Below, in pieces: positions 36,820 through 60,199 of a stretch of DNA of 64,000 nt. The notes beneath the pieces are model-generated. The model was not told the origin of the DNA. It ran no database searches and saw only the letters and a list, made by a program, of their open reading frames with translations. Location: the NCBI RefSeq assembly GCF_024347575.1, contig NZ_AP025505.1:1-64000 (forward strand), given 5' to 3'. Origin of the DNA: Vibrio pelagius. GTDB taxonomy: Bacteria; Pseudomonadota; Gammaproteobacteria; Enterobacterales; Vibrionaceae. A program made the translations under genes and the position numbers. The first letter of the stretch is position 1. Every line of letters starts with the position of its first letter.

Positions 36820-37127
36820 GATTCACCTTGAGCGATGGGTAGTGATTGGGGCTGCGTCTATTGTACATCAATTGATGTGGGTAGCGTTTGGAAAAAGACA
36901 GAATCGCTTGGTGATCACATGGTTACTAGAATTTGTCCAACAACCGGTTGGACAATTGGGAAACAGCTTGTTTCACAAATAAATCTCATGGTGGTTTCTT
37001 GCGCTCTAAACACATCTTGGGGCAGAAACTTGTCAGTGGCTTTTCCAATTTAGCATTTAACGGATTATCTTCGGTATCGCTAAACTTTTAACCCAGTAGA
37101 GAAGACTACACATTATCTGCAGAACTA
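36820..37127. other. Intergenic gap with a palindrome and the first repeat copy
   Basis: The gap holds a palindrome TTGTCCAAC-AACCG-GTTGGACAA (36933-36955), a possible regulator-binding site, and a half-site of the repeat family at 37016-37036 (CTTGGGGCAGAAACTTGTCAG-like, minus orientation). No gene with a ribosome site is visible; the plus-strand frames here are chance. Confidence 0.5.
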
Positions 37128-37955
37128 TTACAGGACTTTTATTTTATTCTTAGCTAAGTTCTCTTGTTGTTTAAGGAACATGAAGAAGTTTGTCTCACTA
37201 ATAAATGGATTCTCATTTGCACCTAGCTTCTCCCTATTCTCAAATAGGTAATTTTTATGTGGATGGTTCGAAAGGTTGACGCTCACAACAGGCGACTGGA
37301 GTGAAATCTTTCTAATTTTCTCCATACTACTCAAGAACTGGTCAATTATTTTTGGGTCGTTGCCACTTACGCTATGGCCACCAACGATAAAAGCACGATG
37401 TTCAGCACCTTTATCTTCGACTGCGAAGTCTAGGGAAAAATCACCTTCAGTGTGACCCGGTGTGAGATAGAACTTAAACTCATGATCACCAATAACCATA
37501 GATCTATCGCTTTTTATCTCTATGTCTAGGTTTGGTGGAAGGAACTTGTTCTCACCTTTGCTTTTATTTGATTGCTGTATAGATAGCTCATGAGCGCTTT
37601 TGGTCATCACAACTTTAGAACCATACATCTTTTGAAGTAACTGAGCGCCCCCAACATGGTCAGAGTGTCCATGAGTGACCAATATGTGAGTTACTGGTTC
37701 TTTATCTAACCCTAGCTTCTCAAGGTTGATAGGAATCCATTTCGAATAAGGGAAATCGAGAGTATCAATTATCACGAGTCCATCATCTGTGACAACTACA
37801 TATGATGAAACCCATTTGTCCCCAACATAGTAAACATTATCAAACATCTGAAACGGTTCTACATAACCGTTCTTATCATTCATCGTTGGAACGTCTTTGC
37901 TTGAAGAAGCAAAGACCGATGCACTGAAAAGGGCACCTAATATAATTTTTTTCAC
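37128..37955 (-). CDS. Exported metallo-beta-lactamase-fold protein, subclass B3-like
   Basis: The 275-residue protein has a signal peptide (KKIILGALFSASVFASS) and a metallo-beta-lactamase fold with metal ligands in THGHSDHVGG (HxHxDH), TPGHTEGDFS (His) and a C-terminal His in SNHPHKNYLF. Spacing and the HGHSDH variant resemble subclass B3 enzymes, some of which hydrolyse carbapenems; relatives with other hydrolase activity also exist, so beta-lactam hydrolysis is not proven. I start at the GTG at 37955, preceded by AGGTGA. It lies between two copies of the repeat family and is alone on its strand. Confidence 0.78.
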   Translation of the reverse strand: MKKIILGALFSASVFASSSKDVPTMNDKNGYVEPFQMFDNVYYVGDKWVSSYVVVTDDGLVIIDTLDFPYSKWIPINLEKLGLDKEPVTHILVTHGHSDHVGGAQLLQKMYGSKVVMTKSAHELSIQQSNKSKGENKFLPPNLDIEIKSDRSMVIGDHEFKFYLTPGHTEGDFSLDFAVEDKGAEHRAFIVGGHSVSGNDPKIIDQFLSSMEKIRKISLQSPVVSVNLSNHPHKNYLFENREKLGANENPFISETNFFMFLKQQENLAKNKIKVL

Positions 37956-38220
37956 GAAATCACCTGAAAACACTTACTGCTTAGTTTGGATTCTGACTTA
38001 CCAAGACACTCATTGAGCGCTGAGTTAGTCCAAAAGGGAGCTACGACCTTAAGAGCAATTTGTTGCATAATCAAGGAAAAAGATACGCTATTTACTTTAT
38101 GACGTACCGATAGAACTACATCATTTGGATAGCGAAACAAATCTTTTTAGAAATGAGGGTTTTTGAATTGACTATGTTGACTGAATTAATCTTGTGAAAT
38201 TTTGGGGCTATCTAAACAAA

Positions 38221-38240
38221 CTTTGGGGCAAATCAGAGCG
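38221..38240 (-). repeat. Repeat-family half-site near 38.2 kb
   Basis: CTTTGGGGCAAATCAGAGCG matches the minus orientation of the family core (TTTGGGACAAAAGCGCC), with one weaker TTTGGGGCTA copy about 20 bases before it. The site lies upstream of the metallo-beta-lactamase gene. Confidence 0.45.
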
Positions 38241-38283
38241 AACAACTAAAAACATACGTTAACCATCAATCGCAACCACCAAA

Positions 38284-38312
38284 CAAAAACGAGGAGGTCA
38301 TCCGATCCTCGC
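38284..38312 (-). terminator. Terminator following a lost gene
   Basis: CGAGGA (38290-38295) and TCCTCG (38306-38311) form a stem; on the minus strand it is followed by a T run. It lies just after the truncated frame at 38330-38415 and would have ended that gene. Confidence 0.55.
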
Positions 38313-38329
38313 TTTTCCCATCCATCGCT

Positions 38330-38415
38330 CTACAGTAAGTTAAACGCCAGTGCCCCAATAATGGCACAGGACACAGACGCGTAGGCGATTTCAACGATAT
38401 ACTTCTCGAAACAAA
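38330..38415 (-). pseudogene. C-terminal remnant of a membrane protein gene
   Basis: The minus-strand frame ending in TAG at 38330 encodes EKYIVEIAYASVSCAIIGALAFNLL, a hydrophobic C-terminal helix like that of a transporter. A stop codon lies just upstream in the same frame and no start exists, so only the tail and its terminator remain. The family cannot be named from so little. Confidence 0.45.
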
Positions 38416-38468
38416 CATCTCATCGGTTTATTGACCTCTTTTTCAGTGGTGGCAGGTCTGCGTTTATC

Positions 38469-39272
38469 ATGAAGTTACTTTTACCCATTATTTTGTCGCC
38501 ACTGTTGGTGGCGTGTGCTGAGCAATCGGTCGCTCATTTGAGCTGCCCTGATATCAAACCCGATGACACAGCGCATCAATGGCACAGTCCATTTGATGAT
38601 TTGCAGGGTTGGGGAAGACATTTTGGTTACCCGCACTCAGCGATGATAGTCCAAGATCCGATGGACTCAAACAATAATGTACTGCGATTAGAATTGCGAG
38701 ACGGCGATCAATTTCACACTCGCTCTGGGTACGCTTATCGAGCGGAAGTGTACGAGCGCTATAAAGCACCGTTCAATCAGCCAATACACTATCGGTTTAA
38801 AGTGCTGATCACTGACCAATGGCAGCACGACAATGTGCGCGCTTTAATTGCTCAGTGGCATGCCACGCCAGATCGTCATTTGAATGAAATCAGCCGTAGC
38901 CCTAACCTTGGGATTGAACTGCGTAATGACCGTTTTCTGATACGCTCCCAAACTAGTCAGTTGGTGGTGAACAGCGACAACAAACACGGCATGACGAGAA
39001 CTCAGCACTACCTTAGCGCGCCGATCGAAAAGAATCGCTGGTATCAGTTTGATGTCAAGGTGAAGTGGACGCCTAACTCTGATGGCTACCTTGCCATTAC
39101 CATTAATGACCAACGTGTAGTGAACCACCACGGGCCGACCAGTTATGTCGATTGTCTCGGCCCCTATTTTAAAGCGGGCATTTACCGCGACCACAGTGTC
39201 AACACCTTTGCTCTGCTGTTGGATGATTACTCACGAACCTTGATTGAGGAATCAAATACGGATTTGGAATAA
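38469..39272 (+). CDS. Polysaccharide lyase-like lipoprotein (heparin-lyase-I-type fold)
   Basis: The 267-residue protein has a lipobox LLVACA (Cys 17) and a beta-jelly-roll domain resembling the polysaccharide lyase/heparin lyase I superfamily: YAYRAEVYERY, PIHYRFKVLI, LIAQWHATPD, RWYQFDVKVKW and YFKAGIYRD. Such enzymes cleave uronic-acid polysaccharides such as alginate, glucuronan or heparin by beta-elimination. It is anchored in the cell envelope. No other carbohydrate genes are adjacent; the flank downstream is a decayed SGNH hydrolase fragment. The substrate is unknown. Confidence 0.78.
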   Translation: MKLLLPIILSPLLVACAEQSVAHLSCPDIKPDDTAHQWHSPFDDLQGWGRHFGYPHSAMIVQDPMDSNNNVLRLELRDGDQFHTRSGYAYRAEVYERYKAPFNQPIHYRFKVLITDQWQHDNVRALIAQWHATPDRHLNEISRSPNLGIELRNDRFLIRSQTSQLVVNSDNKHGMTRTQHYLSAPIEKNRWYQFDVKVKWTPNSDGYLAITINDQRVVNHHGPTSYVDCLGPYFKAGIYRDHSVNTFALLLDDYSRTLIEESNTDLE

Positions 39273-39456
39273 GCCATATTCCAAATCTACGATCCTTATC
39301 GGAGTTGTTGGTCAACATAGAGTCTGGCGGTCAACTAGAATTGTTCCAGCCACTATAACGTCCGGTCATCCCACTCGGTCAGCATGAACCGAAACATTTG
39401 TGGACAAGAAGTTTGCCAGCGACTTTGCTAAATTAGTAATAAATGAATAACTACAG

Positions 39457-39988: not shown

Positions 39989-40019
39989 TTGGTTTATTCA
40001 GAGTTTGCAGGTCAAAGGT

Positions 40020-43374: not shown

Positions 43375-43375
43375 A

Positions 43376-43960: not shown

Positions 43961-44400
43961 TCTAGACTGATATTTCCATCTTCTGATTGGGCCTAATTGG
44001 TTCTGGATTATTGTCTACTCACCCTTTTATTTGGAGAGGGTGAGTATGTTGGTCATTGCTTGATACATTAAATCTCGACTCTCATGTTTATTTCGATGCG
44101 CTGTATTTAGTCAGGATGCCGTTATGAACTGTATAGACTCACCAACCACACTCTCTGAAACGGTTTGGAGCAAAAGCTTCTTAGCGAAGCCCATTATACC
44201 AACACAAACATCTTTGAGGGTAATAAAGGGGGATAAGAAAAATTATCTCAAATTTAAAAATATTACTTACTTAGTCCTGTCTCAAAAACATAAAGTCAAT
44301 AAGAGCACAGGATTACGGACGGTAGCAATGTAGGCCTTGGATGGAATTATATGGGTGAGTTTTAGATTATACTCCCTCCCAATATTCTGTCGAATTTTGT
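43961..44400. other. Gap with an inverted repeat and a doubtful small frame
   Basis: A hairpin with perfect 9-bp arms TACTCACCC (44016-44024) and GGGTGAGTA (44038-44046) lies 55 bases after the MdaB-like gene and may end its transcript, though no T run follows. A 69-codon plus frame at 44124-44333 has no recognisable features and is doubtful. Confidence 0.45.
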
Positions 44401-48160: not shown

Positions 48161-49099
48161 TTAAGATAAGGTGTCTTTTCCTACGTAGAGTTGCTTAAAT
48201 ATGTCCCTTACCCATTCACACATAGGGTCATCGTTAAAGCGTTTGTGCCAATACAAGTAAACCTCTTGAAAATCCAACTGCAGCGCTTTAGGGACTTCAC
48301 GTACAATTAATCGAGGATCTTGACAAGCAGCTTCTGCAAAAGGTGTGGGTAGATGGAAAATAATATCTGTCTCCGCGGCGATACTCGGTGCGGAGCTAAA
48401 ATTACTCAGCTGGACAGGAGCAGATAAACGTTGCTTTTTGTTGGCTAAACCAAGCTCTTGGTACTTATGTTCAAACGATAATCGCTTTTCGCCCTGCAAA
48501 GAAACTTGGCCAAAATCGAAGTCGGCGAGTTTCTCGGGGGTAAGCTCTTGCTCTGCCAGTGGGTGCTTTTTGTTCATCAGTAAGCGGAAAGTTCGCTTAG
48601 CAACAACCATACGATAGATATTCTGCTCTGAGCTTGGTGGTTGATGAGAAGAGAGGGCGAAATGAACGTCTCCCGCTACTAGGGCATCAAAATGACGTTT
48701 TGGTGCCGAATCTAAACTCACCGTAAGGTTTGGCGCTTGTTTTCGAATCTTGGCAATAACCTTGGGCATTAAGGTATTAATCTGAGGTAGAAGACCGTAA
48801 ATCTTGACAGTGCTTGATACGGTACTCGGATCAAATGAGTCTTTATGAGCGAGTTTTTCTAAGCTGCTAATCACATTATTGATATCGTGCTTTACTGACT
48901 CCGCTTTTGGTGTCAGCTCATAACCGTATTTCTTGCGCACTAACAACTCATCATCGAAGAAAATACGCATCTTTTTAAGTGCTCGACTCACCGCAGACTG
49001 ACTCATATTTAAAGCCATCGCGGTGTTGGATACATGCTTTTCTTCGAGTAAATGTTTTAAAATGAAGAGTAAATTTAGATCAATTTGAGATAAGTTCAT
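48161..49099 (-). CDS. LysR-family regulator of the second receptor locus
   Basis: The 312-residue LysR protein has an N-terminal HTH (HVSNTAMALNMSQSAVSRALKKM) of the LeuO/NodD-like subgroup and a ligand-binding domain. It lies upstream of the TonB receptor on the same strand, about 150 bases away. In V. cholerae the irgA receptor is controlled by the LysR regulator IrgB; that gene is divergent, whereas here the order is tandem, so similarity in role is inferred. I start at the ATG at 49099, though a longer frame to 49135 is possible. Confidence 0.85.
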   Translation of the reverse strand: MNLSQIDLNLLFILKHLLEEKHVSNTAMALNMSQSAVSRALKKMRIFFDDELLVRKKYGYELTPKAESVKHDINNVISSLEKLAHKDSFDPSTVSSTVKIYGLLPQINTLMPKVIAKIRKQAPNLTVSLDSAPKRHFDALVAGDVHFALSSHQPPSSEQNIYRMVVAKRTFRLLMNKKHPLAEQELTPEKLADFDFGQVSLQGEKRLSFEHKYQELGLANKKQRLSAPVQLSNFSSAPSIAAETDIIFHLPTPFAEAACQDPRLIVREVPKALQLDFQEVYLYWHKRFNDDPMCEWVRDIFKQLYVGKDTLS

Positions 49100-49260
49100 G
49101 TCAATTATGCCCGCTATGCTTCCAGTAGGTGGCATAGTACATAAACTTTTATAGATTGTGGTAAGTGTTTTCGGCCGTTCGAGTCATGATTCGATTGAGG
49201 CATTGCCTATTATTAGCGATTTAGGTCTAACAAACACAACTAATCTGTTGCGCAAACTCG

Positions 49261-49325
49261 AAATGGGGCAGATTTGAGTTATGAAGTGCTCGCCGCGAAG
49301 GTTTTGGACATAAGTGAGTCAGACT
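49261..49325 (-). repeat. Repeat-family copy near 49.3 kb (two half-sites)
   Basis: AATGGGGCAGATTTGAG (49262-49278) and GGTTTTGGACATAAGTGAGT (49300-49319) both resemble the minus core in direct orientation. The site separates the LysR gene from the DUF2000-LysE-AraC operon. Confidence 0.4.
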
Positions 49326-49381
49326 TACCTCTGACTCCTCACCCTGACTTAGGATTGTTAAAGGTGTAGCTTACTTAAACA

Positions 49382-49792
49382 CTAGTCGTGAAGCTTCGCA
49401 CCTTTGACAACTTTATCCACTATTTTTTTCTCCGCGCACATAGCAATACCGACCAAAGGCAAGCTTTCCGTATCATAGTATCGAACGGTACTTCGATTCG
49501 CTTCATCATGACCTGTCGCGAACATATCTTCGATAAATATTGCGGTTTCAATATTTGCGCGATTAGCGCGTTGGATAAAAGTAGGCAACTTATTTCTCTT
49601 CACTTTTAGTACGATTGTTGGCTGAATACAAAGCGGTAAGTAGGTGTTGTCACTCCCATCTACATATCGTTCACCAGTCTCAACCGCTGATGTTGAAGTG
49701 ATACTACCAGACAAAAAACTGACAACATTCAATTTCTGCCAGATTGGTAAATCCTCTGCCACAACAATGACAAACTTAGAATCAAATTGCAT
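49382..49792 (-). CDS. DUF2000 family protein
   Basis: The 136-residue cytoplasmic protein matches the DUF2000 family: KFVIVVAEDLPIWQKLNVVSF, IQPTIVLK, IEDMFATGHDEANR and PLVGIAMCAEKK. The family resembles aminoacyl-tRNA hydrolase PTH2-like folds and is often found with LysE exporters and AraC regulators, as here. Its function is not established; a role in handling amino-acid or peptide toxicity has been suggested from context only. It is the last of a three-gene operon. Confidence 0.82.
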   Translation of the reverse strand: MQFDSKFVIVVAEDLPIWQKLNVVSFLSGSITSTSAVETGERYVDGSDNTYLPLCIQPTIVLKVKRNKLPTFIQRANRANIETAIFIEDMFATGHDEANRSTVRYYDTESLPLVGIAMCAEKKIVDKVVKGAKLHD

Positions 49793-49807
49793 ATAACCTC
49801 TTATTAA

Positions 49808-50404
49808 TCAGAACACTAAATCAATGACAGGTGGTACACCCATCTTTAAACCAACAAACAGCAACAGCACTGCCATTAGTTTGTTCATTACAGCCAGATA
49901 GTTAGTTTCGTTTATCTTTTTGCCAATTAGGCGTCCAGCAATGTAGTAAGCAGTAGGAGCACCAAACGCAAGTAGTGCCAAAATAGCGCACCATACATAG
50001 ATATATCCGCCTGTAATACCTGCTGATGGGAATTGAACGGTGGCAATAGGCAATGCAACCGTAATGCCTTTGGGATTGAGAAGCTGAAGCATCAAACCGT
50101 CTTGCAGACTCATGCTTTGGCTTGGCTCTGATTCAACTTTACCTACTCGGCTGAAGAATATTTTGTATGCCAACCAAAGAATGTAGATAGCGCCCAATAT
50201 TGCCGTCCATCGTAAGAAAGCATCATTCATTAATGCCTCACCAATCAGCGAAACAGTACCGAATAATGCAAACATGGCGATTGAGACACCGAGACTAAAG
50301 CCAAATATTGAACTTTGTTTCTGTATACCACTGTTTAAACAGATAGCATTGACTGGCCCGGGGGTATACATGACCCCTAGAGCATAAATAATTATGTCCA
50401 GCAT
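49808..50404 (-). CDS. LysE family amino-acid exporter
   Basis: The 198-residue inner-membrane protein has six hydrophobic segments and the LysE/RhtB signature GVMYTPGPVNAICLNSG at the N-terminus (usually TPGPN), plus LLNPKGITVALPIA. It probably exports an amino acid or a related small compound. The operon order AraC, LysE, DUF2000 with short gaps (34 and 15 bases) indicates a single regulated export module. Confidence 0.88.
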   Translation of the reverse strand: MLDIIIYALGVMYTPGPVNAICLNSGIQKQSSIFGFSLGVSIAMFALFGTVSLIGEALMNDAFLRWTAILGAIYILWLAYKIFFSRVGKVESEPSQSMSLQDGLMLQLLNPKGITVALPIATVQFPSAGITGGYIYVWCAILALLAFGAPTAYYIAGRLIGKKINETNYLAVMNKLMAVLLLFVGLKMGVPPVIDLVF

Positions 50405-50438
50405 AGTTTTTATCTTTTAGTAGATGCTTTAGTTGAAG

Positions 50439-51266
50439 CTAAAGCGAGAGTTGTTTTTGGTATTGAGTCGGCGTGATGCCAAACGTGTTCTTAAAGTTAC
50501 GATTAAGATGGCTTAAGTCGGAAAAACCGTACTTAAAAGCAATATTCGCAGCGTTGTCACCTAACTCTAACTCGCGTTTTACACGGTTGATTTTATTGCT
50601 GAGTACATACTGGTGTGGCGTCATGCCAAACTGTTTACTAAACAGTCGAATGAAATGATATTTAGACATATTGGCGGCACTTGATATCTCTTCAATGTCT
50701 ATCTTTCGATTAAGGTTGAAGTGAATAAACTCCTTTGCTCGCTCTAAGAGCATCTCTGTTCGCCCATGAGCCACTTTCTCAATAAACGAACCGCCACCTA
50801 GACGAACTATTGAATGGGCAATGCCTAGTAAGAGGTGTTCTTCCTCTAATGAAGAAAGTGGTTGTTCTGAGTTCATAGAACGTGAAAAAGACATAACCTG
50901 TCGTTGCAAAATCAGATCATAAAAGGATGCCTCTCTCAGCCGAGACTGATCCTTAGATACATTACCTATGCTTTGCATCAGGCTCATCATTATCGAATCA
51001 GGTATGTAGAGCATTTCATACTCCATATCTTTTCCATCTCCAGCATGCCCATCATGAACCTGCTCTGGACTAAAAAAGATTACGTTTCCTGCCTGACTTT
51101 TATGAAAAGCACCATTGCTAAAAAAATCCTGTCGTCCACGGCAAGTTACACCAATACTGAATTCTTCATGCGCATGCTTACCGTAACTAAAGTCTTTCAT
51201 CTTTGCTGAAAATGAACACAACCCTAGCGTGTGCGCACTTTGTTGATAACTAAATTGTTCATGCAT
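50439..51266 (-). CDS. AraC-family regulator of the LysE-DUF2000 operon
   Basis: The 275-residue protein has an N-terminal cupin (YGKHAHEEFSIGVTCRG, about residues 28-45) and a C-terminal AraC double HTH (IEEISSAANMSKYHFIRLF; AANIAFKYGFSDLSHLNRNF). It heads a three-gene operon with a LysE exporter and a DUF2000 protein. The effector is presumably the exported compound. Confidence 0.9.
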   Translation of the reverse strand: MHEQFSYQQSAHTLGLCSFSAKMKDFSYGKHAHEEFSIGVTCRGRQDFFSNGAFHKSQAGNVIFFSPEQVHDGHAGDGKDMEYEMLYIPDSIMMSLMQSIGNVSKDQSRLREASFYDLILQRQVMSFSRSMNSEQPLSSLEEEHLLLGIAHSIVRLGGGSFIEKVAHGRTEMLLERAKEFIHFNLNRKIDIEEISSAANMSKYHFIRLFSKQFGMTPHQYVLSNKINRVKRELELGDNAANIAFKYGFSDLSHLNRNFKNTFGITPTQYQKQLSL

Positions 51267-51374
51267 TCTTACCGACTCAATCTACATAGTGGAAACATAA
51301 TGAAAGTATAGGTAGCAAGTGATAGTGAAGATAGAACAAAATTGCTAAATGCATAGCAGTTACTTTTTGCTCTC

Positions 51375-51442
51375 TAGCAAGCTTTGGGGCAGAAGTGTTT
51401 TAGAGCAGTCGCACTAAGGCGCTCTTGTCCCAAAGCGAGCTA
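51375..51442. repeat. Complete imperfect-palindrome copy near 51.4 kb
   Basis: Arms of 29 bases (51375-51403 and 51414-51442) pair at 21 positions around a 10-base loop. The left arm holds GCTTTGGGGCAGAAGTG and the right arm GGCGCTCTTGTCCCAAAGC, so both orientations of the family core are present in one hairpin. It lies between the AraC-LysE-DUF2000 operon and the metallophosphoesterase gene. Confidence 0.7.
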
Positions 51443-51700
51443 CCGCGTGAGTCACTTCAATGAATATGTACATCACCAGATCTAGGATAATCCCAATGTC
51501 AAAACCACTATTAAATCGTTCATTATTGCCGTAGACCACCATGAATCATTAACTCATCTAAAATAGGTCAGAAATAAAAAAATTATGAGTACGATAGATA
51601 AAAAATCAGATAAAACAGATACTTTTGCTCACATCTTGCCCTCAAAGAACAAAAATCAAGCATACGTAACCACATTCAATGCTATTAGCATTAAACACGG

Positions 51701-52498
51701 TCAATTAAATAACCTAAACAATCTTCGTGAATTAAGGAGGCTTTTTCTGTTGCCATCCTCGTGTGGGTAGCCAATCTGATTAGAGATTTGCCTAACACCC
51801 TCAACAATACAATCGAAATTGTCATGAGTATGTCCACTTACCATCACTCCCACACCGTGCGTAGCTAGCTCTCGGATTAACTCATTATCGTCAGAACAGA
51901 AATAACACGTCAAAAGATCTACTGGATATTTTGAATGCCTCAGTTCAACGGATTGTGGGAAGTGGGTCACAACCAGCTTGTTTTGTGCTGTGGAAGCTAA
52001 CATAGATTTAATACAAGCGTTTCTAAACTCACGGTTCAGTGATCTCATTTTCGAGGGTGTCAGCACTTGGTTATTTACAGAGATGCTTTTGAAGTCATGA
52101 ACTTTCAACTGTAAAGAAAGTGTATTGACGTCGTTCAGCTTACTAATATTAGACCAGCCAACTCCACCAAATAACTCAAGGTCAAATTTGCTAAGGACTA
52201 CAGAAGTGTTTTCTAGGAAGTGTAGGTTGTTGCTTAATTTATTCCAAAGAGGAACGCAAGACAGGTAATCCTGATAATCAAAGCCTCTCTGATAGAACTC
52301 ATGGTTGCCAGCAATAACAATAAACTCAATATCTGGATTAGATTTTGCAGCTTGCAATGCTAACTCTGCTAGCCCGACACCATGTGTTATATCGCCGGCA
52401 GCAATCACAATATCAGCACCAGGATTAACTAAATCCATGATAGTAGTTCCGCAGAACTCCTCATGCAGGTCGGATATTATCTGAAATAAGGCACTCAC
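51701..52498 (-). CDS. Metallophosphoesterase (calcineurin-like)
   Basis: The 265-residue cytoplasmic protein has the dimetal phosphoesterase signature in order: ISDLHEEF (DxH), AAGDITHG (GD), AGNHEFYQ (GNH), a THF motif and SGHTHD (GHxH). It should hydrolyse a phosphomonoester or diester, perhaps a nucleotide; the subfamily is common near phage and defence loci but this is not evidence of such a role. Translation starts at GTG with GAGAG upstream. It lies between two copies of the repeat family. Confidence 0.85.
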   Translation of the reverse strand: MSALFQIISDLHEEFCGTTIMDLVNPGADIVIAAGDITHGVGLAELALQAAKSNPDIEFIVIAGNHEFYQRGFDYQDYLSCVPLWNKLSNNLHFLENTSVVLSKFDLELFGGVGWSNISKLNDVNTLSLQLKVHDFKSISVNNQVLTPSKMRSLNREFRNACIKSMLASTAQNKLVVTHFPQSVELRHSKYPVDLLTCYFCSDDNELIRELATHGVGVMVSGHTHDNFDCIVEGVRQISNQIGYPHEDGNRKSLLNSRRLFRLFN

Positions 52499-52580
52499 TA
52501 ATATGCTCTCAAAAATTACATAAAGTATAGGGCTAACCTATCACATTGCCACTGTGAAAATCTGCTCTCAATATAGAGCC

Positions 52581-52774
52581 CTCACAAGATGCCCCAAACA
52601 TCAATACCACTATTGAACCAGTCACGATTACCATAACCTGAGAATTCTGACGATAAGATGGAGCTGACATCTAATGTCAAAACCACTTTTAAACAGCTCA
52701 CGATCATCATAGCCCTGCGGTTTGACATCTAAATTGTGATGACTCTAAAGGTTAAATCACTTTTGCCCCTAAGC
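52581..52774 (+). repeat. Repeat-family half-sites near 52.6-52.8 kb
   Basis: CTCACAAGATGCCCCAAAC (52581-52599) and AAATCACTTTTGCCCCTAAG (52754-52773) match the plus orientation core in part. They lie in the gap upstream of the metallophosphoesterase gene, before the small hypothetical gene. The gap 52499-52812 holds nothing else. Confidence 0.4.
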
Positions 52775-52812
52775 AGGACACTCCGACCAATACGTTTCCA
52801 TCCCCTCTAAGC

Positions 52813-53250
52813 TTAGCCACGATACGTATCGTCCATACCGTAACTACCAAGTTTTGATAGCGTTTCACTTTCTTCTTCTGTCAATGGCATATTTAACATT
52901 CTGGTATATTCATCCATTCTTATTTGAAATGCTGCACTTTCAATAGCCTCTTTGGACACATCAGGAAACTTTAAAGAGAAAGTGTCAATAATCGCACTCT
53001 GAAGTTGGTCATCATCACAGAACAAATACAACTCTTCAGAAGCGTCGGCGTCACGACAAGACTTTGCAAAAAAGGTGAGGTCACTATGGCCTTTATGGCC
53101 TAACGCAAGGGAAAGCCAATCATTTCGCTTGAAAGCTGAAATTAGAGAAGTTTCTGATTCATTAGAAATCAGGACTGCAAATTGCTTAGCTGATTCTTTA
53201 AATTGTTTAAGCTGTGAAGGGTAAACTGGATACTTGTTTTTTTTAGACAT
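52813..53250 (-). CDS. Hypothetical cytoplasmic protein
   Basis: The 145-residue acidic protein has no membrane segment. Blocks include KRNDWLSLALGHKGHSDLTFF and a C-terminal MPLTEEESETLSKLG. I recall similar unnamed proteins in other Vibrio genomes but cannot assign a function. A good ribosome site (CGAGGA) precedes the ATG. It is flanked on both sides by copies of the repeat family, like a gene cassette. Confidence 0.72.
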   Translation of the reverse strand: MSKKNKYPVYPSQLKQFKESAKQFAVLISNESETSLISAFKRNDWLSLALGHKGHSDLTFFAKSCRDADASEELYLFCDDDQLQSAIIDTFSLKFPDVSKEAIESAAFQIRMDEYTRMLNMPLTEEESETLSKLGSYGMDDTYRG

Positions 53251-53435
53251 TTATCAATCCTCGTTTATTGGGCTAAAGACATGCAATGTGACTCTCATGC
53301 ACTAATCCCAATGAGTACTGATTCATTAGTTAAGATGAAAGCGCCTTGACCACGAGTCAGGTCTAGGTGGCGTCAAACCTAGTCTGTAAAGTATCAGGTG
53401 AGTAATAAGTATGTCAATGGCCATAAAGTAGCCTC

Positions 53436-53458
53436 CTCGCTTGCTTTTGTCCCAAAGC
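53436..53458 (+). repeat. Repeat-family half-site near 53.4 kb
   Basis: CTCGCTTGCTTTTGTCCCAA with AGC following matches the plus core GCTTTTGTCCCAAA exactly over 14 bases. It separates the hypothetical gene at 52813-53250 from the large lipoprotein gene. Confidence 0.55.
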
Positions 53459-53488
53459 ATGGCGACATAATGTAACGGATACAAAAAT

Positions 53489-53534
53489 AACGCCTGCTAT
53501 CTTTGATTTTTTCGAGATCAAAATAACAGGCGTT
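53489..53534 (-). terminator. Terminator of the large lipoprotein gene
   Basis: AACGCCTG and the inner TTTGAT pair with ATCAAA and CAGGCGTT, with a mismatch between them, and the minus strand continues with a T run. It lies 76 bases after the gene's stop codon. Confidence 0.75.
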
Positions 53535-53609
53535 TTATGTTTAAGGGTAATATCCAAGAAGGAAGTAGTTTGAGCCCTTCATATCCAATATCAATGTTAC
53601 CTACATGAT

Positions 53610-55859
53610 TTAGTCTTTAATAAAATTCAGCTTTAATGACTCGCCGTATTCTTTGGCATCCCCTTCTCGGTACTGAAGGTGGACGTAGTAAGTTTCACCT
53701 TGGGTAAAGGTGTTATCACCCATAAGTTCTAGTACATAGTGTGGATCAGCACCGATTCCGTCAATATTGTCCAAACAAAGTCCGCTACCGCCAAAGACAT
53801 TCGGTTTATTGCTGCTTATTTGATTCAATCTGAAATGGTCCTTCAATTGGTCACAACTAACATCGCCAGCAAAAGCTAACTTGATGTAGTTGTCGCCAAC
53901 TTCTGGGGTAACCATTGTTTGCTCAACGTTTTCGCCTATCGCTAATGCATATTCAAAAGGTGCCGGGTTAGAATCGATATCCAGTCTCTGTTCCACTTCC
54001 GATTTATTACTATAGAACATGCGTACATCATGATTATCTTGACCATTGTAATGGTCGATTGATACAGCATAGGCCATACCTGTGTCTGTTGGTTGTTGGT
54101 AACGAACCGTGTAAGTTTTGGTAGAAACAAACACCGATTCTTTTATCGTGGTTAAGTTGACCTCATTATATGACGTTGCATTGATGGTTTGAGACTCTGC
54201 TTGACCACAACCGGAAAAGTCATAGACGTCGCTTAAGGTTTGCGTGACTTTTCCATCGGCGAATTGGACGTAAGAGCAGTAGTTTTTGGTCACACCGTCT
54301 TCTTGTACCTCTTCGATAAAGTACCAGCTTTTCCCAACTAGCGGGTTTGAATCTACTAGCATGCCTTCATTCACTTCTGGTAGTTGAACAGTGACTTGAG
54401 CTGTTGTGAAATTAAAGCCATCCGAAGCGGTAATCGTCAAGCTATGACGGATGTTCTCTTCGCTGAAAGAGCGTACTGGAACTCCGGATATTATAATGCT
54501 ATTTTGATCTTGCTGAGCACTCAACCCTACATCTAACAAGCTACCAGATACGGTGTAGGTTAATGTGTCTCCTTCAGGGTCTGAAAACCACTGTGATAAG
54601 TCTAAAGCTTGTTCAAATCCTTGGCCTTTTTCTAGATTCCAGTTGGCATCAATCAATTGCTGGATATCATTCTGGGCATTGGCACTCACAGTTGGCGATT
54701 TATTAACAGACGAGGTATTGATATCCAATAGTGATAGCATAGAGAAGACTAAGTCTCCGTCTGCGTTATAGTCGTTAGCGGCAAGGAAGAAATCATTACG
54801 CTCCGCTTTAAAGATCTCATCAGACGATAAGGATAGCGTTGTACCGTCCGCTTCAATTTTAACATCTAATCGATTGTCGAAACTGATTTCTTGTTTCGCT
54901 CCATGGGCCCAGAAATGGATTAATGAGTAGTCGACGCCTTGATTTGGTCTATCTGGGTCTTCGTAGAGTGGCGCAGTTCCGCCCTCGATAGGGATTGCAT
55001 TCAAGTCTATAGTAAAAAACATGCCTGAATCACCCGTTGAAATATCACCTATACTATCCCATTGTTTCATTAAGGCATCCCATGCCTCTGGGTTGAAGAC
55101 TAACTTAGTGTTATTTACAGCTTGCGTTGTCTTGTCACCATCTAAGGCGGGTCTGAAGCTCGGATTGTTTAACTCAGCTTCGCCCATTTGATTCACAACT
55201 TGTGCAGCCTCCTGTACAAAATCTTGCCAATCTGTAATCACTTTACTTGGAGAAGCAGCCATTGCATCCGTAAGAAGTTGAGCAACCTTGTGCTGTTCTG
55301 AGGAGCCATTTTTAATATAGTCCTCTTTTAAAGTGAATTTAAGCCCCTCAGTGTCGAGCTGTTGAGACAATAGTGCTTCTGCTTCATCTAAATCGATGTT
55401 CTGCTGGTTTTGAATTACCGAAAGTAAATGAGTGTAAGGTGAGATTACGTCAATTGTAGATGGTGCAACTAAGGTTACTTCCTTAGCCATCGGAGTATTT
55501 GGAAAATCCATATCAATGGTAGATACCCCTTGATATAAATCGTCTTGCTGTGCCATCGCAAGGCTTGTTGGCGAACCCGATATCAGTGTTACAACGCCCA
55601 ACACATCATTATTACCAGCTTCTACCGTTGCTTGCCCCTGTTGATTGGTCAAACCAAGTAGAGCTTCCCCTGAATCCCACTGTTGATTTGCGTTGTTGTC
55701 TCTGAATATCACTGCGTTATACAGCAGTCCGTCCATTGCTGTTACTTGTCTGGTAGCGGTATCACCAGTTGGTGTGTCGCCTCCCCCGGAACCTCCGCCA
55801 CATGCGACTAAACTCGCGACTGCTGCACAAACTATCGACTTTTTGAATACTGTATCCAT
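53610..55859 (-). CDS. Large exported lipoprotein with an Ig/cadherin-like domain
   Basis: The 749-residue protein has a lipobox LVACGGG (Cys 20) followed by a short glycine/threonine linker. An N-terminal domain has AVIFRDNNANQQWDSGE-type repeats that resemble surface beta-sandwich modules, a central Ig/cadherin-like domain (LSQWFSDPEGDTLTYTVSG, about residues 420-500) and an unassigned C-terminal region. It is anchored outside the cytoplasm, probably surface-exposed, and perhaps carbohydrate-binding. I start at the ATG at 55859, preceded by AAGGTGG. Its own promoter lies upstream. Confidence 0.75.
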   Translation of the reverse strand: MDTVFKKSIVCAAVASLVACGGGSGGGDTPTGDTATRQVTAMDGLLYNAVIFRDNNANQQWDSGEALLGLTNQQGQATVEAGNNDVLGVVTLISGSPTSLAMAQQDDLYQGVSTIDMDFPNTPMAKEVTLVAPSTIDVISPYTHLLSVIQNQQNIDLDEAEALLSQQLDTEGLKFTLKEDYIKNGSSEQHKVAQLLTDAMAASPSKVITDWQDFVQEAAQVVNQMGEAELNNPSFRPALDGDKTTQAVNNTKLVFNPEAWDALMKQWDSIGDISTGDSGMFFTIDLNAIPIEGGTAPLYEDPDRPNQGVDYSLIHFWAHGAKQEISFDNRLDVKIEADGTTLSLSSDEIFKAERNDFFLAANDYNADGDLVFSMLSLLDINTSSVNKSPTVSANAQNDIQQLIDANWNLEKGQGFEQALDLSQWFSDPEGDTLTYTVSGSLLDVGLSAQQDQNSIIISGVPVRSFSEENIRHSLTITASDGFNFTTAQVTVQLPEVNEGMLVDSNPLVGKSWYFIEEVQEDGVTKNYCSYVQFADGKVTQTLSDVYDFSGCGQAESQTINATSYNEVNLTTIKESVFVSTKTYTVRYQQPTDTGMAYAVSIDHYNGQDNHDVRMFYSNKSEVEQRLDIDSNPAPFEYALAIGENVEQTMVTPEVGDNYIKLAFAGDVSCDQLKDHFRLNQISSNKPNVFGGSGLCLDNIDGIGADPHYVLELMGDNTFTQGETYYVHLQYREGDAKEYGESLKLNFIKD

Positions 55860-56066
55860 ATTAACCACCTTATCCATAACTAACGTTGTATGTATTGTCC
55901 TAAGCAACTAACTTGAATTTATTTAAAACAATGTATTTCAATTCTATTTAATCGCTTGATGCTAATGGGTTGTTTATAATTTATACAGACTGAATTCACG
56001 GTTGGGTGATGGATATCGAGTTATTTTAAATTAGTATGAGATAGCGCTCAATAATTGGTGTAATTG

Positions 56067-56501
56067 ATGTTTATATTGTTTACCTATTTGAAAAAGGCAA
56101 ATGAATATAAAAATATCTTACGACTAGCGAATTATCTGAGCCTAGCAATCTTTGTTCTAGTGACCAACACAAACCAACTACAGGCCTCTATTAACCATCG
56201 ATATGGTGACAGTGTTAACGCTCAACAATATCTTGAAAAATGCTTCAAGCTTGCTTTCGTAAGGCATGTCATAAATGAGCATCACCTTTAATTACGTGAA
56301 GTGGACACGCTGGTCAGGTACATAGAGGTATACCAACAACTATCAAATGGGCAAGCTCTAGCTGATAACGTTGTATTCGGATACCGACTACTTAGGTTGT
56401 TTGGAGTCATGCTCTTTTACTTTAATAATCAGTTAACTCGCATACTCGTTCAGGATCTGATGCAAAACAGCTCGCTGAATTCTTTGGTTAACATCAAATA
56501 G
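56067..56501 (+). pseudogene. Possible small exported protein gene with an in-frame stop
   Basis: A frame from the ATG at 56067 reads LSLAIFVLVTNTNQLQASIN-like hydrophobic sequence, then QQYLEKCFKLAFVRHVINEHH and a TAA at 56289-56291. The same register continues open for about 70 codons to a TAG at 56499-56501, with QQLSNGQALADNVVFGYRLL. One stop thus splits a frame of about 144 codons. The ribosome site is poor, so this may be a decayed gene or chance. Confidence 0.3.
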
Positions 56502-56639
56502 TTCCCACCCTATAAGGGTCACTTGATTCCGAACAACATCAAATAGTCCCTACAATGATCGCGCAAGAATGTTTGTACAGATCAGACTAGTTTGAGCCTA
56601 GTGATGATCACCATGACTCGGAATGGCAACACTTAATCG

Positions 56640-56666
56640 AAGCCTACTTTCGTCGAGTAGGCTTTT
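56640..56666 (+). terminator. Intrinsic terminator
   Basis: Perfect 9-bp arms AAGCCTACT (56640-56648) and AGTAGGCTT (56656-56664), a 7-base loop and TTTT. No intact gene ends just upstream, so the gene it served may be the decayed one at 56067-56501. Confidence 0.75.
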
Positions 56667-56762
56667 CTCCTAGAAAAAGAGAGCGTACACAAATCGTAGT
56701 GGAAGCAATTTAAGTCCTCAATCTAATGAAAATCATATAAAGCTTGGCGACTTATGCTAATT

Positions 56763-56786
56763 CCTAAGTCGCTTTTGTCCCCTAAC
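56763..56786 (+). repeat. Repeat-family half-site near 56.8 kb
   Basis: CCTAAGTCGCTTTTGTCCCC matches the plus core well. An internal AAGTCG...CGACTT inverted repeat adds a short hairpin. It lies 90 bases before the two-gene JAMM module. Confidence 0.55.
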
Positions 56787-56875
56787 GACTTGAGTTTTCG
56801 TCAAAATCATAAGATTATCTCTTGAATGATGTATATATTACGGGTGCGACCAAATAAATTCATGGGGTGAATATT

Positions 56876-57757
56876 ATGTCATATACGGGTTATCAAGAGA
56901 TCACGAAGGAAGAACTCAAAGAGCTCGAAGAGGAAAGGTTAGAACTGTTAGCGAGCTTCAAACTTCACCTTGAAAATTTCTGTAAATACCTAAACTTAGA
57001 TTTGGATCAACAGGCTGCTTTTCATTCGATAAGTTGGTCATTGAAATCACGCCTTGAAAATCCGAAACATACTCCAGAGAAGACGAATGGGGTACGTATT
57101 TCAGGAAAAGGCCACATAAGCTTAAAAATGATAGACGAGGTAAAGTCTGTCGCTTCAACAATTGTAAATGATCTAGCCTGTAAGATTGCCGCCTCATCAC
57201 AGCAATTGTTATGTAACGATATCGCTTTAAGAGGTTCGCCAGAATTAATTGCAGTGAAACTTACCCATCGATACTTGTTCGGCCATAAACACTTCTATGA
57301 TATTTCCGCTACCCCTGACGTACCCTCTGTGCATCATTATGAAATAGACGCTTTTTCCAAGTATTACCTATTAGATAGAGTTCAGGTATTCTACGAAAGC
57401 CAGTATCATCGATACAAACTCTGGGATGGAAGGTCGATTGCTCTTTTCAACAGTTGTCTTTTCGATACTAAGAGTCAAGAGCACACGTTTTTTAATTCTC
57501 CTAATTTAACCCACTTGTTAGGCGATGATCCGGATCTAATAGACAAAAAATGGTTCAAAGAGGAGTGTATTCAATGTTGGTTAGAACTCAATGCAGAAGC
57601 ACCTTTGCATCAATATACCGAGCTTGCATACCCCGATGACGATGGAGTGATTTTTGCAGAGTATGTACCGCTTACCATGGTTGGTGAAGATGTATGGGAT
57701 GCGTTATATGAACGCTATGAACACAAACTCAAAAATCGCATTACGCACCATTTTTAA
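56876..57757 (+). CDS. Unknown protein paired with a JAMM-motif protein
   Basis: The 293-residue cytoplasmic protein begins with an acidic helix (TKEELKELEEERLELLASF) and shows no membrane segment. Blocks are SLKSRLENPKHTPEKTNGVR, TIVNDLACKIAASSQQLL, HHYEIDAFSKYYLLDRVQ and CIQCWLELNAEAPLHQY. I recognise no family. It is 46 bases upstream of a JAMM-motif gene on the same strand and is bounded on the other side by a family repeat, so the two are probably one unit. I start at the ATG at 56876, with GGGTGA upstream. Confidence 0.75.
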   Translation: MSYTGYQEITKEELKELEEERLELLASFKLHLENFCKYLNLDLDQQAAFHSISWSLKSRLENPKHTPEKTNGVRISGKGHISLKMIDEVKSVASTIVNDLACKIAASSQQLLCNDIALRGSPELIAVKLTHRYLFGHKHFYDISATPDVPSVHHYEIDAFSKYYLLDRVQVFYESQYHRYKLWDGRSIALFNSCLFDTKSQEHTFFNSPNLTHLLGDDPDLIDKKWFKEECIQCWLELNAEAPLHQYTELAYPDDDGVIFAEYVPLTMVGEDVWDALYERYEHKLKNRITHHF

Positions 57758-57803
57758 TATTAAAAATGCCAATCTAAGTCATTAACAAAATAAAGAGAAA
57801 ATA

Positions 57804-58595
57804 ATGGTAGCAACGATTTCTGTAACAAAAAGCGCTATATTTGAGTTAATCATGGCAGGCTTAGAAGCCTACTCCGTTAAACACCAAGAAAGCAGTAGTG
57901 TGTCTGTTGAGACAGGAGCGCTACTTTGGGGTTACGTAAACAAAACCCGTCCATTTAAATGCACTATCAAACATGTTTCGGTTGAGAGTTCTGCAAAACG
58001 AACGAGATCTTCGGTAGAGTTTAACGCCCAATCACTGAAATTGAAAAAAGACATTGCAAAGGTTTTCGGAGAGCAGCACCAATACATTGGAACAGCCCAT
58101 TCTCATCCTTACCTTCGAGCGGAGTTAGTTGATGCGGCCAAGATCAGAAAAGAAAAGCTATATGAACTATCTGCTTCAGATCACAGTTGTGAAACTGGAA
58201 ACCCAGAAATAGAAATCGGAGACAAGTCTTACAGCGTCGCCCTTGTATTAACCGTTCACGCTATGATGAAAGCCAATGACAGAAAAGATGACTCTCATTA
58301 CGGAGAACCACTCGTCGAATTTTCACTTGGCAATATCAAATGTTGGCTATATGGCAGAGTTTTCGAACATAAGGTGAAGTCATCTTTAAGCGATGAAGAG
58401 CATCATTCGTTTGAGTGCTATGGTCTTCCTCTAAGCAAATTCCATGATGATGACATTGTGCCTGTTCCTATGGAGACCGCACTGGAAAGTGACGTTTTTC
58501 TCGATACTTTGTGTAAGGATTTTGGTCGATTAACATTTTTAGATAATGAATCTGAGTATGATGTAGCCGCTGTTGCGGAGCGTAGATGGGCATGA
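57804..58595 (+). CDS. JAMM/MPN-motif protein (putative metalloprotease)
   Basis: The 263-residue protein carries a JAB/MPN+ motif: Glu in VETGALLWGY (about residue 38), HSHP at about residues 102-105 (GTAHSHPYLRAEL) and SASD around residue 128, giving the Glu, two His and Asp ligands of a zinc isopeptidase or Cys-tRNA-like deconjugase. Bacterial JAMM proteins cleave ubiquitin-like conjugates or process peptides, and some belong to defence systems. No E1, E2 or ubiquitin-like gene is visible, so conjugate removal is not supported here. It forms a pair with the unknown protein before it. Confidence 0.78.
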   Translation: MVATISVTKSAIFELIMAGLEAYSVKHQESSSVSVETGALLWGYVNKTRPFKCTIKHVSVESSAKRTRSSVEFNAQSLKLKKDIAKVFGEQHQYIGTAHSHPYLRAELVDAAKIRKEKLYELSASDHSCETGNPEIEIGDKSYSVALVLTVHAMMKANDRKDDSHYGEPLVEFSLGNIKCWLYGRVFEHKVKSSLSDEEHHSFECYGLPLSKFHDDDIVPVPMETALESDVFLDTLCKDFGRLTFLDNESEYDVAAVAERRWA

Positions 58596-58689
58596 TTTTT
58601 CTGCCTTAGTCTCAGCTTACGCTTGTTTTGTTAGCGGTACTGATTCAAGTGCTGCTACAAAGTCTAAGACTTATTCGAAGTTAGTAGGT

Positions 58690-58709
58690 CTGAGGCGCTT
58701 TGTCCCTAC
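58690..58709 (+). repeat. Repeat-family half-site near 58.7 kb
   Basis: CTGAGGCGCTTTGTCCCTAC matches the plus core with one T fewer. It lies 95 bases after the JAMM gene and 18 bases before the next start codon. Confidence 0.55.
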
Positions 58710-58727
58710 ACGAGAAAAACTAAACTA

Positions 58728-59264
58728 ATGACATACACAATAACTGAACATAAACATCGCTTCTCTGCATGGGCAGCTTCCAGAGCATCAAGTGTTAAGG
58801 GGACAAGGTTTACGGTAGAACAAGGTAAACAACTTATCGAGTCTATAGGTCTAGACACATTGGTTGACGATCCAGATAAACTACCAGCAAGAGAAGACAT
58901 TAACAAACAGCACCGCCTATGGCGTGAACAACTTATTACTGAAGCGAGTAAAATTGGATTGGCCTTTACTCATGGGATCGCAGCCAAATTAATCAACATG
59001 TACTTAAAATCGGCTTTGGTTTGCGGGGGATATGATTCGCACGTAAAGGTCACCGATTTGCACCCTCCCATAGATGCCGTGTTGTTGAAAGCTTTGCGCC
59101 GAAGTAATATCGGAGGACTGAAGTCTCGCTGGAAAGAGGCTGAGCTTGCAAAGTGGTCTAGATTTTCCTCAGATCAATATGAACAAGTGATCCAATCAAT
59201 CAGAGAAGTAATGGGCAGCCGCGCGTTATGGCAAATTGAAGAAGATTGGCAAGGGTACCAGTAA
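58728..59264 (+). CDS. Hypothetical cytoplasmic protein (widespread, function unknown)
   Basis: The 178-residue protein begins TYTITEHKHRFSAWAASRAS, continues with RFTVEQGKQLIES, GIAAKLINMYLKSALVCGG and the block HPPIDAVLLKAL. I recall similar unnamed proteins with this start in many bacteria, often within accessory regions, but no function. The ribosome site is weak. The gene is tightly enclosed: a family half-site lies 18 bases before its ATG and a complete hairpin copy starts 8 bases after its stop codon, the layout of an integron cassette. Confidence 0.8.
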   Translation: MTYTITEHKHRFSAWAASRASSVKGTRFTVEQGKQLIESIGLDTLVDDPDKLPAREDINKQHRLWREQLITEASKIGLAFTHGIAAKLINMYLKSALVCGGYDSHVKVTDLHPPIDAVLLKALRRSNIGGLKSRWKEAELAKWSRFSSDQYEQVIQSIREVMGSRALWQIEEDWQGYQ

Positions 59265-59271
59265 TGAATGA

Positions 59272-59359
59272 ACTAAGGCGCTTTTGTCCCAAAACTTGGC
59301 TCTATGAAACGTTTTTGGACATAAACGCGTTAGTATAGTTACTCTAAAACGCTTATGTC
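59272..59359. repeat. Complete imperfect-palindrome copy near 59.3 kb
   Basis: Arms of 24 bases (59272-59295 and 59311-59334) pair at 20 positions around a 15-base loop: ACTAAGGCGCTTTTGTCCC on the left, GGACATAAACGCGTTAGT on the right. A third half-site, CTCTAAAACGCTTATGTC, follows at 59342-59359. It begins 8 bases after the stop codon of the preceding gene. Confidence 0.75.
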
Positions 59360-59395
59360 AGGTTAGAAAAAGTATCTTGAAACCTTAAATGCTTG

Positions 59396-59842
59396 TTATG
59401 TGCGTATTTTGTTGTAAGAACTTCTACAGGTCGTGCAGTAATAATGAGCAGACGAACCTGGCATGTAGAAGTCCCCATTCATCGCAGGGCTAGCTGGTAC
59501 GAATTTCAGATGGATTAGCTTGTTATCACCCTCGTAACATTTTGTACAAAAGGGAGATTCGTCACCATTAGCCCAATACATTTCGGTGTCGTTATCATAT
59601 TGAACAGATTGACGTTCATCGAGTTTTGCTTGGAGTGACCTGATTTCCTCGTTTTTTTGAGCAAGAATACCATTCAATTGAGATGCTTCTACCATGGTTA
59701 AAGACAGTTGCTGTGTCAACGTTGCCAAATGCAGTTGCATTTCCATAGAATTTGGTTCATCTTTTTGAATTAATTTTAGCGTATCCAATGACTTATTTAA
59801 AAAGTCGATCAAAGTTACGCCAGCTGTCAAAGTAACATCCAT
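59396..59842 (-). CDS. Coiled-coil protein with a C-terminal zinc ribbon
   Basis: The 148-residue protein has a helical, probably coiled-coil N-terminal part (residues 15-80; LKLIQKDEPNSMEMQLHLAT and LNGILAQKNEEIRSLQAKL) and a C-terminal zinc ribbon with CTKC near residue 98 and CTTC near residue 139, giving four metal ligands. Similar small ribbon proteins act in nucleic-acid or protein binding, but no family is named here. A strong ribosome site (GAGGAG) precedes the ATG. It is enclosed by two repeat copies (59272-59359 and 60071-60110). Confidence 0.78.
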   Translation of the reverse strand: MDVTLTAGVTLIDFLNKSLDTLKLIQKDEPNSMEMQLHLATLTQQLSLTMVEASQLNGILAQKNEEIRSLQAKLDERQSVQYDNDTEMYWANGDESPFCTKCYEGDNKLIHLKFVPASPAMNGDFYMPGSSAHYYCTTCRSSYNKIRT

Positions 59843-60070
59843 TAATACTCCTCTTGTAGTAGCACATAACGCTTTCTATGCGGCTTTTAGCCGCCTTTCA
59901 TATTGCTATAATGCAACCTTTCTCATACCACATCAACGTGTAATCAATAGGTTAATGAAAGTTAACAGAAATTAGATTGCATGATGCCTTATAATTTCAG
60001 AAAAATGCTGTTACCCAAACTCCTTCGGATAACTTTTGATAGGTGAAATTACTAGGTTCGAAGTAAGTAA

Positions 60071-60110
60071 GAGCTTTTGCTCTGAATTGTTTTGGGGCAA
60101 AAGCGTGATA
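60071..60110 (-). repeat. Repeat-family copy near 60.1 kb
   Basis: TTTTGGGGCAAAAGCGTGAT matches the minus core strongly, and GAGCTTTTGC upstream pairs with it to give a short hairpin. It is the last copy seen, just before the ethanolamine region. Confidence 0.6.
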
Positions 60111-60199
60111 GAGCATATATTCTGCTTAACAAGAGGTGTGTTATTAAATTTAATAATAGATGATGATGGCCTATCTTTTTCTTTTCTAACTTTTGATAC

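Follow-up and report, generated by a model that had tools for sequence, protein, structure and literature searches.

The first 64,000 bases of contig C3 (395,604 bp) of Vibrio pelagius, whose genome of 4.96 Mb is in three contigs, are the stretch analyzed here and are referred to as the window. From 37 kb onward, small groups of genes in the window lie between copies of a short repeat. We describe these repeats and the units of DNA that they bound, which probably belong to a gene-cassette system separate from the integron. The repeats share a pseudo-palindrome, consensus CTAACGCGTTTTTGTCCAAAAACGTGTTAG, with TGYCC at its centre (hereafter, the core). The cargo includes a metallo-beta-lactamase-fold protein, an AraC/LysE/DUF2000 group, a metallophosphoesterase, a JAB-like pair, and small family-less proteins. 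Comparisons of the cargo proteins with Pfam and PADLOC gave a weak JAB match for the JAMM-like protein and no match for the proteins of 145, 178, and 296 residues; the first two of these were also compared with PHROGs, without a match. Rfam at its gathering threshold has no match in the window between 30 and 64 kb. Cores were scored with a weight matrix of 31 nucleotides (nt), trained on 68 cores of a recurring right end (element E) and 14 window cores, and scores of window cores are inflated because the latter were in the training set and counted twice. The features, with percentages of identity to other genomes (G numbers), are:

37,007–37,037, minus: core with TGCCCC at 37,024, distal border of the metallo-beta-lactamase-fold unit (23.9 bits)
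38,213–38,243, minus: core with TGCCCC at 38,230, proximal border of the same unit (12.5 bits); both borders come from core scores in the window only
44,155–44,185, minus: additional core-like site around 44,172 (20.5 bits)
49,253–49,327, minus: tandem cores 40 nt apart, right end of the AraC-LysE-DUF2000 unit (26.0 and 16.0 bits; TGTCCA at 49,310 and TGCCCC at 49,270)
49,262–51,395, minus: cassette with AraC regulator, LysE-type exporter, and DUF2000 protein (six genomes, 85–89%)
51,374–51,443, unstranded: two inverted cores 35 nt apart (51,391 minus and 51,426 plus; 32.3 bits each), a palindrome between divergent units, with identical spacing in other arrays
51,386–52,774, minus: cassette with calcineurin-like metallophosphoesterase (matches in G009 and G197)
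52,764–53,453, minus: cassette with 145-residue hypothetical protein (cores at 52,764 and 53,448, 18.4 and 22.6 bits; G085)
56,237–56,781, plus: unit without a called gene of at least 80 residues, ending at the core at 56,776 (G059, 90%)
56,776–58,705, plus: cassette with 296-residue protein and JAB/JAMM-like protein (G119 and G172, 67%)
58,701–59,290, plus: cassette with 178-residue hypothetical protein, from TTGTCC to GGCGCTTTTGTCC (G140, G149, and G019, 93–94%)
59,272–59,334, unstranded: two inverted cores 36 nt apart (59,285 plus and 59,321 minus; 31.1 and 34.5 bits), joining convergent units
59,306–59,398, minus: element E, right end of the zinc-ribbon cassette, with attC-like half, conserved stretch, hairpin, and TGTCCA
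59,317–60,104, minus: cassette with 148-residue CxxC protein, a zinc ribbon by eye (G031, 94%; G136, 87%)
60,082–60,112, minus: core with TGCCCC at 60,099, left end of the zinc-ribbon cassette (27.6 bits)

Next to cores, a 43-nt repeat is also present at 51,495–51,537, 52,597–52,639, and 52,673–52,715. It translates to peptides like YGNRDWFNSGIDV, and the copies are perhaps remnants of a repeated coding end.

A sequence-only reading of the window had first drawn attention to a recurring 17-mer. Its exact sequence is found just once, at 59,277, but with up to three mismatches there are five matches against 0.21 expected, a number reached in 0 of 100 shuffles, and the site to which the 17-mer belongs is longer and degenerate. 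This wider family is real: contig C3 has 22 matrix matches above 12 bits compared with 4, 2, 5, 3, and 5 for five random sequences from a first-order Markov model. Of the C3 matches, 13 fall in the window, all from 37,007 onward. The three matches before that point score 9.9–11.4 bits, which is background level, and the statement that copies are absent before 36.9 kb therefore stands. Most places named in that reading (37.02, 38.22, 49.27, 49.31, 51.39, 51.43, 52.76, 53.45, 56.78, 59.29, 59.32, and 60.10 kb) exceed 12 bits. Those at 52.59 and 58.70 kb score below 9.5 bits; the copy at 58.70 kb has a left arm one base shorter, yet comparison with other genomes makes it a border. The site around 44,172 had been overlooked, and the two long hairpins that were described lie at 51.38–51.44 kb and, inside E, at 59.31–59.36 kb.

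Genome-wide, close matches to the 17-mer concentrate on C3, and at two mismatches the counts on contigs C1 and C2 are level with a backward control. Further copies are at 254.7 kb and about 316–325 kb of C3 and on the other contigs too. The 68 E cores yield the consensus CTAACGCGTTTTTGTCCAAAAACGTGTTAG, pseudo-palindromic about TGTCCA. Among 174 distinct cores, the centre is TGTCCA in 97, TGCCCC in 39, TGTCCC in 26, and TGCCCA in 6. Paired cores keep set spacings (36 nt in six convergent pairs, 35 nt in four divergent pairs, and 38–44 nt in ∼18 tandem pairs; some regions were retrieved, and hence counted, twice). The DNA outside TGYCC tends to fit the palindrome at the right side of E cores and at the left ends of a recombinase unit described below.

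The DNA between the repeats recurs elsewhere. Bases 48,900–61,200 were searched against 223 genomes, one per species, and unit ends were then inspected base by base. Window modules come back as separate pieces whose similarity stops at the core, in agreement with the cassette-like layout proposed from the window. The AraC-LysE-DUF2000 unit is in six genomes (G166, G174, G149, G094, G141, and G159) with flanks unrelated to those of the window. Its near end is at the 51,391 core in 6/6 and its far end at the tandem core at 49,310 or 49,270 in 3/6; in G149, G094, and G141, similarity fades 45–49 bases before the far core. In G009, the metallophosphoesterase unit is 98% identical over 51,386–52,774 with cores at both ends and is followed by a short joint which in the window comes after the 178-residue unit. 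Therefore, neighbours were exchanged. The same unit in G197 is 95% identical over 51,414–52,571 with a core at one end. The 145-residue unit in G085 (88% over 52,792–53,453) has its right end at a core, and the 296-residue/JAMM unit in G119 and G172 has left ends at the core and right ends within the unit. The 178-residue unit was found in three genomes, with junctions inspected in G140 and G019 and the right core in G149; its right neighbour is one in the window, another in G140, and yet another in G019 and G149. The left ∼230 nt of the zinc-ribbon cassette (59,867–60,099) are likewise found elsewhere, in G134 with different cargo ahead of E.

Exchange at a single locus is visible on contig C2, where G159 holds AraC-LysE-DUF2000 and G014 holds LysR-LysE between the same two cores, with similarity stopping and restarting at the cores. 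In plasmids pNDM-116-14 and p345-185, one right side is abutted by three different left sides at TGTCC|AAAAGCGAG. These two plasmids (L010 and L165, respectively) also show by eye a Tn7/Tni-like frame with ends TGTCGGWGGACA..AAAGTTTGAAACT, whose right end abuts the TGTCC core that receives different cassettes; in p345-185, the frame has GTTAT flanks on both sides and no DDE transposase annotated between its ends. We rejected such a frame as a general mechanism because a AAAGTTTGAAACT-like motif is within 100 nt of only some cores (8/166, vs. 10/3,000 random stretches). Arrays can be long: within 19 kb of G009, 16 cores exceed 14 bits, and most neighbouring genes have one between them. The G009 genome has no integron integrase (IntI) at E 1e-60, the threshold applied across genomes. 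In the V. pelagius genome, an array at 2,377.7–2,387.4 kb of C1 (L248) has seven cores above 14 bits. The array at C3:316–325 kb (L027 and L028) and this one carry GajA and GajB (Gabija) and AbiD, and Ppl and a CBASS-type cyclase. Frames of an ordinary and a very large tyrosine recombinase are paired at C1:355.8/357.6 kb and 2,364/2,368 kb, similar in size to those of strand-biased circularizing integrative elements (SEs); the second pair is ∼9–23 kb ahead of the C1 array.

Element E is a right end present in many Vibrio genomes. A 151-nt query around 59,306–59,398 (minus) matched 45 plasmid records (42 Vibrio, 2 Photobacterium, and 1 Shewanella), of which 20 are listed, all matching across the E part. 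Of 148 Vibrio genomes, 75 have a match to the E consensus, and 31 of these 75 have no integron integrase at the threshold above. An 18-base piece of E is also in Photobacterium and Shewanella contigs, amid unrelated chance matches. On plasmids, LysE can be beside E, and E closes a run with predicted dfrA6 and qnrVC6. Aligned copies share a stretch resembling TTTAAGGTTTCAAGATACTTTTTCTAATCT, then a hairpin whose sequence varies, and then TTTNTGTCCA, after which they diverge. The hairpin, which adjoins an almost invariant GTCC with free flanks, covaries ahead of the core. At its centre, Watson–Crick pairing averages 33.5/65 per pair compared with 14.8–18.3 when the alignment is slid. Eleven pairs are above half Watson–Crick, and three of these have 3–4 pair types, which 0, 2, and 0 of 300 shuffles reached (shuffles ignore relatedness). 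This pattern is compatible with recombination of a folded bottom strand but does not prove it. In 49 of 78 distinct E copies, including the window copy (59,372–59,398, minus), the element starts with a sequence resembling the R''-L'' half of the attC of the V. pelagius genome (TAACAAR..TTTAAGG), as would be seen if the E right end had been joined to integron cassettes.

We suggest that the repeats are the core sites of a gene-cassette system apart from the integron, most likely moved by a small tyrosine recombinase (probability roughly 0.7). This reading draws on the discrete units, exchange at the core, changed neighbours, one-locus swap, recombinase gene on a unit with like ends, and local clustering seen in the compared sequences; from the same comparison, we infer that the cassettes are mobile. 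A unit would be ∼0.6–5 kb, usually with one to three genes, and would span from one TGYCC core to the next, beginning at TGYCC on the left and often ending on the right in a hairpin that abuts the core. The recombinase would swap strands in or beside TGYCC between two pseudo-palindromic sites of ∼30 bp. No fixed platform would be needed for units, alone or in arrays, to exit, enter, and acquire new neighbours. A small single-domain recombinase, itself often one such unit, would act on the other units in trans, presumably through circular intermediates. Unequal spacers together with the structured right end would point to one-strand exchange, of the kind that integrons and SEs use, more than to a plain Xer-like reaction.

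The candidate enzyme is a protein of ∼200 residues, found beside two arrays, that consists of the catalytic domain of a tyrosine recombinase alone. Its Phage_integrase (PF00589) match covers residues 37–183 of 198, and the catalytic RHRHY residues are conserved, with R60, H157, R160, H183, and Y192 invariant in three aligned sequences. XerD is its best match of solved structure, and it falls below the NCBIfam cut-offs for named subfamilies. It was matched in 93 of 223 genomes (threshold E 1e-30, broken copies included), and the V. pelagius genome has one stop-free copy at C1:1,729,055. The gene is often on a unit of ∼0.73 kb with TGYCC ends. In 10 of 30 loci, the left end is TGTCC|ACCRACGTTTCAG (with variants, one of them TATCC), ∼585 nt before the LLGH motif, and in 20 of 30, the right end is the inverted repeat CAGGCTTTTC...GAAAAGCCTGTGYCC or a near form, ∼135–140 nt after that motif. 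The arm outside the left end fits the core consensus at 6.9/10 positions compared with 2.6 for random sequence (n = 10, 8 distinct). Core density is 22 per 106 kb at recombinase loci and 4 per 101 kb at IS91 loci. The E element is ≤10 kb from the small recombinase in 12 of 77 cases, whereas 0.48 are expected with random placement in 5 Mb (G003, with a single module, contributes two of the counts, and G011 contributes three). Plasmids of Vibrio europaeus, V. tapetis, Pseudoalteromonas carrageenovora, Shewanella aestuarii, and Proteus terrae have the small recombinase with a core in the 10.6–12.6 kb inspected. On the V. tapetis and Proteus terrae plasmids (L296 and L297), it is near type I restriction genes.

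Several observations weigh against this interpretation. The left neighbour of the 178-residue unit is identical in G140, G149, and G019 and differs from that in the window, so the three occurrences are not three independent insertions. Hairpins (≥10/13 matches) are at 39% of E-type ends (n = 56) and at 9% of others (n = 110). Unit ends often have unequal spacers (TGTCCA left and TGCCCC right), which a simple double-strand exchange would disfavour. At the recombinase unit, the arm outside the right end fits the consensus at 3.35/10 positions compared with 2.89 for random sequence (n = 20), and 10 of 30 loci are without the right end, two having other TGTCC joints and eight another context. The eight loci in another context, without the usual unit ends, are L265, L266, L270, L279, L284, L287, L291, and L292. 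Relatives of the recombinase are on plasmids of many genera, and the sole distant locus inspected, in Paraburkholderia, had no core above 11 bits. At the genome level, E and the small recombinase do not occur together significantly more often than expected (37 vs. 32.9, P = 0.19, taking both samples as the identical 148 genomes). Because the assignment of the enzyme is based on shared ends and clustering, without a genome-level association, it is a role that we infer. Lastly, cores are enriched at exactly three mismatches to the XerD box (67/174 vs. 38.4 expected); the enrichment arises because the consensus TTATGTCCAAA is itself three bases off.

That enrichment added weight to the view that cassettes of this kind are moved by XerC/XerD, the integron integrase IntIA, or another tyrosine recombinase, with the small recombinase as cargo. 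The nonsignificant co-occurrence points the same way, as do the 16 Phage_integrase matches in the V. pelagius genome and the precedent of the Acinetobacter dif modules, in which pdif sites have XerC and XerD boxes (PMC6449649). Nevertheless, we regard this view as unlikely, albeit the most credible alternative: at up to two mismatches, the XerD box is no more frequent than expected (6/174 vs. 7.2), E is not associated with IntI (P = 0.50; 31/75 genomes lack it), and the small recombinase clusters with E. A hairpin end next to GTCC with free flanks, spacers that are unequal between unit ends, and IS91-family transposase genes near some copies also suggest rolling-circle HUH elements (IS91/IS200-like), which would use GTCC as target and carry cargo by one-ended transposition. 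This seems improbable given that two Vibrio IS91 families have different ends and that the DNA beyond TGYCC fits the palindrome at E cores and recombinase left ends, though not at recombinase right ends. A search for the Y2 transposase (PF04986) matched 47 of 227 Vibrio genomes and found nothing in that of V. pelagius, nor in any of 14 controls. IS91-family ends as the source of E were rejected, their ends being different. Separately, one group of IS91-family elements (family A; L197–L216) includes a tyrosine recombinase gene; in several of its 14 copies, judged by eye, the element lies within an attC site and its junction is at a GTT/GTTA box.

Could the repeats be degenerate attC sites moved by IntIA? 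Small units in arrays, a stop-free IntIA frame, and the attC-like start of E (attC recognized by eye) are in keeping with this. But the cut is at TGYCC and not at G/TTRRRY, and GTTRRRY or RYYYAAC surrounds the cut in 5 of 174 cores compared with 88 of 2,000 random 22-mers, which agrees with the sequence-only reading that the sites are not canonical attC. Gene orientation relative to the core is mixed, and the G009 array is in a genome without IntI. The search for an integrase proposed in that reading did find one, at C1:1,958,186, but on another contig, and the surrounding 340 kb hold no core above 14 bits and one above 12. The one match to a VCR-type attC pattern around IntIA is due to chance; a genuine attC is recognizable by eye at C1:1,957,475–1,957,595. 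We consider degenerate attC sites very improbable. REP/MITE-like repeats or transcription terminators that merely lie between genes, the alternative raised from the window, would account for hairpins, intergenic position, and T-rich stretches past some stems. They leave exchange at the core unexplained, since what recurs is the DNA between copies with similarity stopping at cores, and we find this alternative scarcely credible, although a hairpin at the right end might affect transcription as well.

Much single-gene turnover in Vibrio has been attributed to superintegrons. A second cassette system could explain scattered defence genes, such as those for Gabija, AbiD, the CBASS-type cyclase, and Ppl in the V. 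pelagius genome, and some of the variation of resistance plasmids. Its reach is suggested by E alone, in half of the Vibrio genomes sampled (75/148) and on plasmids of Vibrio, Photobacterium, and Shewanella. More tentatively, and at slightly less than even odds, marine gammaproteobacteria may have a second, integron-independent cassette economy in which defence and adaptive genes are packaged between TGYCC cores and shuffled by a single-domain tyrosine recombinase. This recombinase would itself be a cassette, would need no platform, and could capture integron cassettes through fusion of an attC half to its own right end. With the site consensus, cassette borders can be searched for directly, and the small recombinase offers a case for studying a recombinase without a core-binding domain. 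We found no account of such a system in open-licence PMC papers (preprints were outside the search).

Comparison with known systems places these cassettes beside several of them. Integron cassettes are similar in that small units whose right end is structured follow one another in arrays, with a tyrosine recombinase as the presumed agent of shuffling. They differ from those described here, which have another site and cut point, either gene orientation, no attI platform seen, and hosts without IntI. The window array, on C3, has no IntI beside it, the sole match over the cut-off being that on C1, and attC boxes are at the exchange point in the same 5/174 cores. SEs, such as SE-6283 and SE-6945, span 6.4–58.5 kb where their ends are known and have four core genes, intA, tfp, intB, and srap, at one end (PMC10214605). 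They too are found in Gammaproteobacteria including Vibrio and use tyrosine recombinases, with a 6-base spacer between imperfect inverted arms and spacer bases that may differ between ends. We rejected SEs as a source because the ends described in the SE literature consulted do not match; of the four core genes, those for integrases were looked for, and none turned up for the 10 cassette proteins scanned in the window.

FimB/FimE invertases have ∼200 residues and, like the small recombinase, no core-binding domain. The fim repeats TTGGGGCCA are similar to TTTGGGGCA (PMC8777976), but here whole units change loci. The FimB/FimE profile NF007371 scored 21.3 bits against a cut-off of 222 in one small recombinase and had no match in a second. 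In the way they work, the cassettes described here resemble both integron cassettes and the Acinetobacter dif modules, the latter with 28-bp pdif sites (PMC6449649). Like the dif modules, they hold one accessory gene or a few between two-arm sites of ∼28–30 bp with a short centre, are on plasmids and chromosomes, and have sites in both orientations. Here, in contrast, the core is three of 11 bases from the XerD box, many right ends have a hairpin, and the small recombinase gene travels as a module. We file the cassette system as a member of neither the integrons nor the dif modules: as judged from sequence, its joining site differs from that of integrons, and its recombinase probably does as well.

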